Origin: Aster yellows witches'-broom phytoplasma AYWB
GTDB taxonomy: Bacteria > Bacillota_I > Bacilli_A > Acholeplasmatales > Acholeplasmataceae
Direction of reading: 5' to 3'
Assembly (NCBI RefSeq): GCF_000012225.1
Contig: NC_007716.1
Location: forward strand, 496,001-560,000
DNA length: 64,000 bases
This document shows positions 36,772-40,351 of this stretch, piece by piece (within the stretch, counting starts at the first letter, position 1; the number at the start of each line of letters is the position of its first letter). A program made the translations under genes and the position numbers. A model generated the notes under the pieces. That model worked only from the letters and a program-made list of their open reading frames with translations, was not told the origin of the DNA and ran no database searches.

Positions 36772-37089
36772 TTATTTTTTTAACAAAATATCAATTGCAG
36801 TTGGTAAACTAATGTGCATTAAAGATTCAATTGTTTTTTTATTGGGATTGATAATTTGAATTAAACGTTTGTGAGTGCGTCGTTCAAATTGTTCTCTTGA
36901 ATCTTTGTTGACGAAAGGGGAACGCAAAACAGTAAATACTTCTTTTCTGGTAGGAAGAGGTATTGGACCTTCAATATTTACTCCTGTTTTAGAGACAATA
37001 TCAATAATTTTTTTAGCTGCTTGATCAATTAAATGATGGTCATAGGCTCTTAGAATTATTTTGATAATTTCTTTTTCTTTTTTGTTCAC
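36772..37089 (-). CDS. rpsJ: Ribosomal protein S10
   Basis: First gene of the cluster; in other bacteria S10 is also the NusE antitermination factor. [55 protein letters not shown] and the LPTAIDILL end are clear. Translation starts at GTG after AAAGGAG. An imperfect inverted repeat arm and a 15-base palindrome lie in its leader. Confidence 0.97.
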
Positions 37090-37123: not shown

Positions 37124-37138
37124 TTGTCTATTAGACAA
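37124..37138. promoter_or_regulatory. Palindrome in the S10 leader
   Basis: TTGTCTA-T-TAGACAA is a perfect 7-1-7 inverted repeat, 35-50 bases upstream of the rpsJ start and downstream of its predicted promoter. It could be a protein-binding operator or, in RNA, a weak hairpin next to the ribosome site. It overlaps one arm of the large inverted repeat. Confidence 0.5.
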
Positions 37139-37171
37139 ATATTTTGCTTAAATAATTTTTTTCTTAGACAA
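37129..37171 (-). repeat. Inverted repeat, arm A
   Basis: Read on the minus strand this 43-base arm matches plus-strand bases 38114-38157 with one substitution and one single-base gap (42 of 44 positions). It starts TTGTCTAAGAAA and ends TTGTCTAATA, so each arm carries the octamer TTGTCTAA at both ends. It lies in the leader of rpsJ. Confidence 0.85.
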
Positions 37172-37231
37172 CTGACATTAGTGTTTTGTATTTTTGGATT
37201 AAAAGAAAAAATATTTAAAACAAGCCTTTTT

Positions 37232-37261
37232 ATTATACCTTAAAAAAAGATTTTATTGTAA
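37232..37261 (-). promoter_or_regulatory. Candidate promoter of the S10 cluster
   Basis: On the minus strand TATAAT occurs at 37232-37237, with TTACAA 18 bases upstream (37256-37261). The start point would lie about 135 bases before rpsJ, placing inverted repeat arm A and the palindrome in the leader RNA. Confidence 0.55.
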
Positions 37262-38113
37262 GTCATTTTAATTACAAAAGTTAAAAAAGTAATTAATAAT
37301 GTTTTTTTAAAATAAAAAAATCTGTTTAAAATAAGCAAAATTATGAAAGGATTTATTTATTTTGAATTTTTGTTTGTTAAAAAAATATAATTAGTTAATT
37401 CAAATATCTTTATATTAAAATATAAAATGATTTAATTAAAAGGTTCTTTTTTTATATTTAATGATAACTTTTTTAACAAATTTAAAAAACTGTTTAAAAG
37501 GATTAGTTTTTGCAAAACGCATATAACCATTAAATATTTATAATTAAAAACCAAATAATAAATAATATAACAAATCTTAAATAACTTGTATAAATTTGTG
37601 TTTTATTAAGTTGTAATAATAAAATATAATTTGATAATGTATTTGTATTGGATTGTAAATAAATCTAGATATTGTTGTAAAACTTTTTGAGTATTTAGAT
37701 TTTCAAAAACGAATATATCAAAAAAGTAACAATCATTCCAAATATACTTAATAATAAAAAAATGGTGGTTCTTAATAAAGAAGATATGTTTTGTTTGATA
37801 CCCCAGATATATTTTTTACTTATAATTATTTAAATGATTTAGTTTTGGAATAACAGAAATATCCAACAAGTGCTTTTACTAAAAGAACTAAAACAAGAAC
37901 TAAACAAAAAGCATAATATTTTTTAGTTAATTGTTTTTATTTAAGTGCTTTTAAATCTTCGTTATATTTTTCTGTTCTTTTATCTGAGTTTTGTTTGTTT
38001 GACAGTTAATCTAAATGTAAGTATTTATTTAATTTGTTATTAACAAGAAATAAGTTAAAAAATAATATCAAAACTATAAATTAAAATAATATCCAATAAG
38101 GAAAAAAATATCA

Positions 38114-38157
38114 TTGTCTAAGAAAAAAATTATTTAAACAAAATAATTTGTCTAATA
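38114..38157 (+). repeat. Inverted repeat, arm B
   Basis: The plus strand reads as the partner of arm A at 37129-37171, starting TTGTCTAAGAAA and ending TTGTCTAATA. It begins nine bases beyond the rpmF stop codon. The arms are about 940 bases apart. Confidence 0.85.
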
Positions 38158-38165
38158 ATGATAAA

Positions 38166-38372
38166 TTAATTGTCAGTTGTTTTTTGAGCTTTAGAAGGTT
38201 TATTTTCTAAAATAAGTTTTCCTTTGTAATAACCACTATTTTTAGTAACTCTGTGAGACAAAGTAAAAGCATTAGTTTCTTTGCAAAGTACTAAAGCAGG
38301 ATTACTTAACTTATAATGAGTACGTCTTTTTCTTTTTGCCGTTTTTCCGGTGCGTCTAAAAGGAACAGCCAT
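38166..38372 (-). CDS. rpmF: Ribosomal protein L32
   Basis: Large-subunit protein starting [20 protein letters not shown] and containing [17 protein letters not shown], which matches L32. The zinc CxxC..CxxC set of the usual form is reduced to one cysteine (LVLCKET, then TKNSGYY), so zinc is probably not bound. At 68 residues it has a slightly longer C-terminus. AAAGGAT precedes the ATG. It is isolated between two gene-poor stretches. Confidence 0.95.
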
Positions 38373-38566
38373 TTTATCAAATCCTTTCTTTGTAATTTTG
38401 TTTGTTTGTAGAATTTATTATAATTAATAATAAAACTTTTCAACAAATAAAAGGTTAATCAAAACCCAATTAATAACTGCCAAAAATTATTATTAGCAAT
38501 TTAATCAAGCTTAAAAAATTAATAATCATACCAAAGATTGCAAAAATTAATTTTAAACCTAAGTTT

Positions 38567-38595
38567 ATTTTATCTTAAAAAAGCTGTTTTGTCAA
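38567..38595 (-). promoter_or_regulatory. Strong sigma-70 promoter for rpmF
   Basis: On the minus strand a perfect TTGACA (38590-38595) and TAAAAT (38567-38572) are 17 bases apart. It predicts a leader of about 190 bases before rpmF. A second TATAAT at about 38417-38422, with TTGTTG 18 bases upstream, could give a shorter leader. Confidence 0.7.
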
Positions 38596-38647
38596 TCTAT
38601 TTTGAGCTTTTTTTACTTTTTGTTCTTATTTATTTTTTACTTTAATT

Positions 38648-38743
38648 ATTATTTTGTATTATTATTTTGTAAAATTACAATAATATAAATAAATTATTTT
38701 GTAAATAACTTATAAATAAACAAATTTAGATAATTATTTTGTA
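38648..38743 (+). repeat. Four direct copies of ATTATTTTGTA
   Basis: Exact copies of this 11-base word start at 38648, 38661, 38693 and 38733, all in the same orientation within 96 bases. Spacing is irregular (13, 32 and 40). Such a cluster could be iteron-like protein-binding sites or simple chance in AT-rich DNA; the G in each copy makes chance less likely. Confidence 0.7.
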
Positions 38744-39253
38744 TCATATTAATTTATCATTTTTAAACATTATTTAGCTTTTCTACCCCATTTTATCAAA
38801 AACAATAAAAAAGTGAAAAAAGTGAGCATACTTTAACACAAAAAAGAGTTATAATAGAATTAAACACTAATGAAAACGCTGCATGTTGAAATATTATTGT
38901 CTATATTTTTTTAAATATTTTTTCATGAACACCAAACTGCAAAATAAAAAAAAGGAAAGGATTCAAACGGAATATAAATAAATTTTTAAATTAAACAGTA
39001 AAAATAACTTGATAAAATGCATAAAGAAAAAACAACTTACATCAATTTTCCTAAAAATATTTAGTTAATAAACAAATTAAAAAAATTGCTTGTTAACTAC
39101 ATTTAAATAATTGATAAAATAATGATAAAAACACTTGATAAAAAAAACATTTATTTAATATTAATTACATAATAAATAACTTTTTACACTATTTCAAATT
39201 TTTAAACTTTTTTAAATAACTTTAATTATAAAAAAATCAAAGAAAAAGAAAAG

Positions 39254-39289
39254 ATAAATACAATAATTTATATATTTTTTGGTATGACC
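39254..39289 (+). repeat. Diverged direct repeat, copy 1
   Basis: It shares its first 20 bases exactly with 39940-39959 and then a diverging tail that ends TATGACC versus TATGAACC. In one reading frame both copies encode a related peptide (KYNNLYIFWYD here, KYNNLYFFYYEPN at copy 2), so they may be remains of a duplicated gene. Confidence 0.55.
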
Positions 39290-39314
39290 TAATTAAATTG
39301 AAATTTTTCCAAAG

Positions 39315-39356
39315 AGTGTTTGGTGTACGCTAACTATTATTTAGCGAACAATAAAC
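39315..39356 (+). other. Compact hairpin in the gene desert
   Basis: CGCTAA (39328-39333), a seven-base loop, then TTAGCG form a perfect inner stem. Flanking GTTTGGT and ACCAAC can pair outside it with one bulge. Its G+C is high for this region. It may be a small structured RNA element or a remnant of a gene. The T run needed for a terminator is absent. Confidence 0.35.
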
Positions 39357-39611
39357 CAACTTATAATAAAGTAAATACATTTTTTATATTTTTAATTATA
39401 TATATTAATTTATGATTTTTTTATAGCTTAATAATTTATACTTATAATTAATATTAACTACCTTTTTTTTAAAAAGAAAGGAGTCTATTTTTTAAATTAA
39501 CAAAATTAACAAGACTTCTAAAAAAACCAATATAAAGCTTTAATTCCTTTTTAATGCTTATAATTATAAAATATTTTAATACTATTACTCAACATTAATT
39601 CTTATTTTATT

Positions 39612-40043
39612 AAAGAACATTCAGAATTTAAATTAAACTATCAAATCAAAAGTACTTTTAAAATAAAAGTAAAAAGAGATACTCTAAATAATACAATTCA
39701 TAATATTAAAGTAAAAAAACAATAATAAAGCTCTTTCTTATATAGATAAAAATTGATCCTAATTATTACACAAAAGTCTCATTTCACAAAACAATTAATC
39801 AAAAAAAGACGAATTAATGTCTACGGTCAATTATTAATTGTCCCCCCAAAAAATATTATATTTATCTATCATTATGGAAAAAAAGCTATTTATTAAGGAT
39901 AAAACACATACCTTAGAAGCAATCATAAACATGAAAAAAATAAATACAATAATTTATATTTTTTTTACTATGAACCAAATTTAATCCAAAATATCTCTCT
40001 ATCCAAAAAAACAACTTGGTATAAATCTTATCACAAGAAATAA
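39612..40043 (+). pseudogene. Decayed gene of unknown family
   Basis: One reading frame runs 143 codons to a TAA at 40041-40043 with only five internal stops, far fewer than AT-rich random sequence would give. It reads like protein: KEHSEFKLNYQIKSTF.., LIKKRRINVYGQLLIVPPKN, IIFIYHYGKKAIY, then KYNNLYFFYYEPNLIQ. A perfect terminator follows 65 bases later, as expected for a former gene. No family is recognised, and no intact start or ribosome site remains. An isolated AAAGGAG at 39477-39483 has no start codon after it. Confidence 0.35.
39940..39976 (+). repeat. Diverged direct repeat, copy 2
   Basis: Partner of 39254-39289, about 690 bases apart. It lies inside the decayed reading frame that ends at 40043. 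A short ATG-started frame of 36 codons in another phase (39874-39984) overlaps it but has no ribosome site. Confidence 0.55.
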
Positions 40044-40108
40044 TTATTTTCATATTTAAAATAAATTAATAAACTATTTAAAAAAAATAAAAATAATATA
40101 AATAATAA

Positions 40109-40136
40109 AAAAAACTATCCTTCAGGATAGTTTTTT
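40109..40136 (+). terminator. Perfect hairpin terminator without an intact gene
   Basis: AAAAAACTATCC, loop TTCA, GGATAGTTTTTT: a 12-base perfect stem with flanking A and T runs, so it can work on either strand. No intact gene ends into it from either side. It fits best as the terminator of the decayed plus-strand gene at 39612-40043, or of an unannotated RNA. Confidence 0.8.
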
Positions 40137-40351
40137 GTTTTTAAGATCTAAATAATGAAAACTAAGTATTCTTTTTTACATCCAAAATTAATTTGGTTTA
40201 TGTTATGATAAAAGTAAATGATAAAATAATTTAAAACTTATTTCTTTGAAAAACCAAAATAATATAATATTACAAAACAAAAATTAATAATAAAATGCAA
40301 TTAAGTGCTTTTATGTTGTTTAATTAATATTTAGATTGAAGGAAAAATTTT

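Follow-up and report, generated by a model that had tools for sequence, protein, structure and literature searches.

The two arms of the near-perfect inverted repeat that lies between rpmF and rpsJ in aster yellows witches'-broom phytoplasma AYWB are best explained, with a probability of roughly two in three, as an inverted duplication of the rpsJ leader whose copies have been kept alike by sequence exchange. About 44–52 bases of the rpsJ 5' leader would have been duplicated and inverted, and the reverse-complement copy would have landed directly after the rpmF stop codon in the ancestor of the asteris-clade (16SrI) phytoplasmas. The arms would since have been kept alike through mutual exchange, most likely by template switching at quasi-palindromic DNA or by single-strand annealing, as RecA is missing or broken in the five genomes that carry them. 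The copy probably has no function of its own, and the arms appear to be mostly an ordinary, mildly curious, lineage-specific duplication.

Structure of the rpmF–rpsJ locus

The arms were read directly in the window, which is the whole 64,000-nt stretch of the AYWB genome that was analysed (G000:C1:496001-560000). The left arm, on the rpsJ side, is TATTAGACAAATATTTTGCTTAAATAATTTTTTTCTTAGACAA (37129-37171) and the right arm, on the rpmF side, is TTGTCTAAGAAAAAAATTATTTAAACAAAATAATTTGTCTAATA (38114-38157). Compared as inverted repeats, they are equal in 42 of 44 columns, the other two being one substitution and one 1-base gap. A gapped alignment widens the arms to 37129-37179 and 38107-38157 (52 columns, 92%, 927 nt between). 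The presence of TTGTCTAA at both ends of each arm, noted in an earlier sequence-only reading of this DNA, was confirmed, and the sequence of each arm forms a quasi-palindrome, AAATTATTT-N5-AAATAATTT. Quasi-palindromic sequence is prone to template switching. The near-perfect match claimed in the same reading also held, the arm pair scoring 38, whereas the best pair in each of 40 dinucleotide-shuffled versions of the whole window scored 18–26. A 24-mer arm core, with up to 3 mismatches allowed, had two matches in the window and none in 100 shuffles, and just the two arms were found in the whole genome of 723,970 bases (5 contigs, the largest 706,569). The features of the locus, in window coordinates, are as follows.

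36772-37089, minus strand: rpsJ (ribosomal protein S10), first gene of the S10-spc operon (Pfam PF00338, E 3e-34)
37129-37171, minus strand: rpsJ-side arm, in the rpsJ 5' leader between promoter and Shine-Dalgarno, the ancestral copy (read directly; sister-leader alignment)
37129-37225, minus strand: upstream part of the rpsJ leader, containing the block AACACYAATGTCMGTTGTCTA at 37165-37185 (alignment of eight rpmF–rpsJ genomes)
37232-37261, minus strand: rpsJ promoter, TTACAA - 18 nt - TATAAT, between the arms (read directly; conservation)
37445-37736, minus strand: decayed small membrane-protein gene (48% identity to the G008 protein used as query, 9 internal stops; G000:C1:533445-533736)
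37829-37999, minus strand: second decayed small gene (53% identity to the G008 frame used as query, one stop; G000:C1:533829-533999)
38114-38157, plus strand: rpmF-side arm, which begins 8 nt past the rpmF stop codon and is most likely the rpsJ leader copied in inverted orientation (42/44 columns)
38166-38372, minus strand: rpmF (ribosomal protein L32; Pfam PF01783, E 2.7e-19)

As the rpsJ promoter, on the minus strand, lies between the arms, the rpsJ-side arm falls inside the rpsJ leader, downstream of the -10 box and ending about 30 nt upstream of the Shine-Dalgarno sequence. In the asteris-clade genomes that were scanned, TT-N20-23-TATAAT occupies the corresponding position. The promoter elements, together with the 'GCTTGTTTT' start region, were also found upstream of rpsJ in distant phytoplasmas, for example at L043/L044, where the counterpart reads TTGCAATAAA...TATAATAAAAATGCTTGTTTT. 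A 300-bp rpsJ upstream fragment of the OY-M strain drives RpoD-dependent expression in Escherichia coli, and the S10 operon has been reported to be expressed less strongly in the plant host than in the insect (PMC3831623).

The leader block AACACYAATGTCMGTTGTCTA is kept with small variations in all eight aligned rpmF–rpsJ genomes of the asteris and sister clades and is better conserved than its surroundings, and it could be a regulatory site, for example one bound by a ribosomal protein. An Rfam search returned nothing near a gathering score, including for this block, and a promoter and terminator scan found many chance promoter-like sites and no classical terminator. Upstream of rpmF, a further 2 kb or so (38373-40351) contains no convincing gene and includes a weaker inverted repeat pair (39142-39235/39380-39470, 70%).

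The AYWB genome has close inverted duplications outside the rpmF–rpsJ locus too. When twelve other 20-kb stretches (240 kb of the same genome) were examined together with the window, three close inverted repeat pairs outscored the arms (scores 166, 133 and 89). Close inverted repeats were recorded at about 174,580 of G000:C1 (L160 14580-15530; 208 columns at 91%, 537 nt between) and at about 217,905 (L161 17905-18197; 40 columns at 92.5%, 213 nt between).

Distribution of the arms and the ancestral copy

All five asteris-clade genomes compared (G000, G041, G008, G015 and G013) have both arms, flanked by the same genes and oriented alike, and in these genomes the distance from the rpmF stop to the rpsJ start ranges from 578 to 1348 nt. 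The distal end of the rpmF-side arm has been lost in G041 and G008. The absence of an intact gene between the arms, as claimed in the sequence-only reading, was borne out for AYWB, where the interior consists of the remnants of two small genes. These genes are open or nearly so in G008 and G041 (L004 1273-2046 and L141, respectively, two orphan membrane-protein-like genes), interrupted in G000 and G015, and largely deleted from G013; they were found only in asteris-clade genomes and are decaying in all of them. In G008, the larger is an open frame of 102 aa and the second has a C-terminal hydrophobic stretch. No convincing Pfam or PHROG family was found for the G008 proteins, neither gene had a relative outside this locus in 29 phytoplasma genomes, and the larger had no plasmid match.

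The rpmF–rpsJ order is also found in four sister-clade genomes (G006, G007, G014 and G023), with a spacer of only 167–213 nt. The AACACYAATGTCMGTTGTCTA block is present, with variations, in the rpsJ leaders of all four. In G014 and G023, the leader sequence that follows the block, GAAAACAATTATTGAAAC and GAAAATGATTATTGAAAC, respectively, is homologous to the arm, and the rpsJ-side arm aligned locally with these leaders with scores of 20–21, which none of 500 shuffles equalled. In G006 and G007, local alignment against shuffles detected no significant likeness to the arm proper in the rpsJ leader. No inverted copy behind rpmF was significant against the G000 arm in any of the four; the rpmF 3' flank of G014 gave one weak score against the G013 arm, which 38 of 500 shuffles equalled and which is unconvincing. 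By these comparisons the rpsJ-side arm is the ancestral, native rpsJ leader. Since G014 and G023 have a homologue of the leader arm and lack the inverted copy at rpmF, the rpmF-side arm is most likely the derived one of the pair, copied from the leader in inverted orientation.

The short spacer of the sister clade (G007, G006, G014 and G023; L007-L010) has no TT-N20-23-TATAAT rpsJ promoter. For this reason, rpsJ may be transcribed from upstream of rpmF in the sister clade, a possible change in operon structure.

Concerted change of the arms

The two arms of G013 are identical over 43 bases. Both depart from the arms of the other four genomes at the same three columns (6, 18 and 30), and at each of these the G013 letter is the same in both arms. 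Chance coincidence of the three matched changes has a probability of about 1e-5. Overall, the G013 arms are 3–6 substitutions from the orthologous arms in other genomes. In G000, G041, G008 and G015, one substitution and one or two gap columns separate the two arms, and the rpsJ-side orthologues are identical. Only across the deepest split are the arms within a genome more alike than orthologues; within this group of four, the reverse holds. At one site, AAAACAATT is found in the rpsJ leaders of both G014 and G013, in place of the AAAAAAATT of the others, so that the G013 state is probably the older there and the two arms would have changed jointly in the other lineage.

The arms evolve in concert, either by conversion or template switching, which is the likelier, or by selection on pairing. 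Exchange is favoured over stepwise compensation because two of the three paired changes in G013 are transversions, which could not be bridged through G-U pairs. The evidence comes from five genomes with one deep split, and suggests exchange or compensation at least once around that split rather than continuously. A search for RecA found none in G000 and stops or fragments in G041, G008, G015 and G013, in agreement with the literature on AY-WB and OY-M (PMC3750655). Since none of the five has an intact RecA gene, the likelier route would be template switching that does not depend on RecA, or an exchange that predates the loss of RecA. RecA was also missing or broken in G007 and G023. The sister genomes G006 and G014 have it intact, as do most of the other phytoplasmas searched, and its loss has probably been repeated.

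Some observations stand against an inverted duplication maintained by exchange. A short copy behind a ribosomal-protein gene that has been kept amid heavy decay might be under selection, and no intermediate of the founding event is known. In addition, the single arm-core substitution in G000, G041, G008 and G015 leaves a G-U pair, an outcome that pairing between the transcripts of the two arms would also predict.

Alternative explanations and known systems

Such pairing is the first alternative. The rpmF 3'-UTR would be antisense to the rpsJ leader and pair with it, either in trans or within a read-through transcript, which might tune S10 operon expression or mRNA stability. Both arms are noncoding, one just after rpmF and the other within the rpsJ leader. 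In all lineages tested, the genome's own rpmF 3' region and rpsJ leader have a predicted duplex of -65 to -69 kcal/mol, which falls to -51 to -55 kcal/mol when G013 is crossed with another lineage, and the pairing has been preserved through the concerted changes. We nevertheless consider this explanation unlikely. Two of the three paired changes being transversions tells against it, selection against a single mismatch in a 43-bp duplex is hardly to be expected, the Shine-Dalgarno sequence is not directly covered by an arm that ends short of it, and the incomplete rpmF-side arm of G041 and G008 would weaken the case further. The corresponding pairing in the sister clade was rejected, as the own pairs of rpmF 3' region and rpsJ leader were not consistently the best. 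It is likewise unlikely that a 43-nt antisense element in the rpmF 3'-UTR couples L32 and S10-operon expression, with compensatory change in the 16SrI phytoplasmas. Were the pairing functional, it would indicate that a regulatory antisense RNA could arise simply, by inverted duplication of its target's own leader.

The rpmF-side arm might instead be the rpmF transcription terminator, an A+T-only hairpin followed by a T-run, with its resemblance to the leader secondary. A hairpin of the form AAATTATTT-TGTTT-AAATAATTTTTTT followed by T was identified (z -2.1, with 8 of 200 shuffles as good), and the arm may act as a weak terminator. As the explanation of the arms, this is quite improbable: the rules of the scan find no terminator-like site, the T-run is broken in G013, and the 42/44 identity to the rpsJ leader is left unexplained.

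Nor do we favour the proposal of the sequence-only reading that the arms could be the ends of a lost or non-autonomous mobile element, which we judge very unlikely. About 1 kb lies between near-perfect inverted repeats, the interior genes are orphans confined to this locus, and the sister-clade spacer is short, all of which would fit an element. One arm, however, is the ancestral rpsJ leader, and the promoter between the arms also appears to be ancestral, so that the arms do not delimit a foreign segment. The copies, target duplications and empty sites that such an element would leave were looked for and none was found. No dispersed copies of the arms were found beyond the locus in the AYWB genome or in viral contigs, and matches elsewhere in the genus were weak and A+T-rich. 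The arm core had no match in the viral collection, and a plasmid search with the region gave only rpsJ/rplC matches of other bacteria. The outer flanks, ...GAAAATATTGTC and ATGATAAATTAA..., have no common direct repeat, and no transposase-like frame was found between the arms. When the segment was examined as a MITE-like element, terminal inverted repeats were present (42/44), though one of them is native leader, and a site empty of both repeats was not found, G014 and G023 keeping the rpsJ-side sequence as leader. The constancy of place and orientation in five genomes is further evidence against mobility. What stands of the 'lost' element is that the segment holds two decayed genes; a mobile element it does not appear to be. 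The arms are unique to the locus and show no trace of mobility, as the sequence-only reading had required for a refutation of its proposal, but they are conserved in close relatives, where it had required the opposite. The short sister-clade spacer was considered as a clean empty site and rejected, as the rpsJ promoter in the asteris segment is common to distant phytoplasmas and absent from that spacer; a deletion in the sister clade is as possible as an insertion in the asteris clade.

We give almost no credence to an invertible switch in which the segment flips by recombination between the arms, since, although inverted repeats flank a promoter, only one orientation was found in five of five genomes, inversion would take the promoter away from rpsJ, RecA is missing or broken, and no recombinase-like frame was found between or next to the arms at this locus, where the neighbours are ribosomal protein genes. 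The sequence-only reading had thought a switch unlikely with the rpsJ promoter inside the segment, and was right to do so, as this promoter is conserved in distant phytoplasmas and the OY-M fragment is active (PMC3831623).

Invertible promoter switches of the phase-variation type share with this locus a promoter between inverted repeats. Unlike them, the rpmF–rpsJ segment is fixed in five genomes, serves an essential operon and has no recombinase between its arms. MITEs, IS-bounded non-autonomous elements and phytoplasma potential mobile units (PMUs) likewise have inverted repeats around DNA without an intact gene; the rpmF–rpsJ arms differ in that they include a native operon leader, occur at a single locus, are not accompanied by a target duplication and enclose no transposase or PMU gene. 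The OY-M rpsJ promoter fragment studied in E. coli is orthologous DNA (PMC3831623), and its 300 bp reach the promoter and the rpsJ-side arm, whereas the rpmF-side arm is more than 1 kb upstream in OY-M and would be outside the construct.

A close parallel to the inverted leader duplication lies in the homogenisation of inverted repeats. That inverted repeats are homogenised by gene conversion or quasi-palindrome template switching is a known process, and the arms resemble its products in being nearby inverted copies that change in concert, in their quasi-palindromic sequence and in their setting in a small A+T-rich genome. They differ in that they are only about 44 bases long and belong to a clade without intact RecA, the exchange itself being deduced from five genomes. 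On this reading the arms are a small, well-placed example of the concerted evolution of short inverted repeats, upstream of the S10 operon, in a lineage that has lost RecA.
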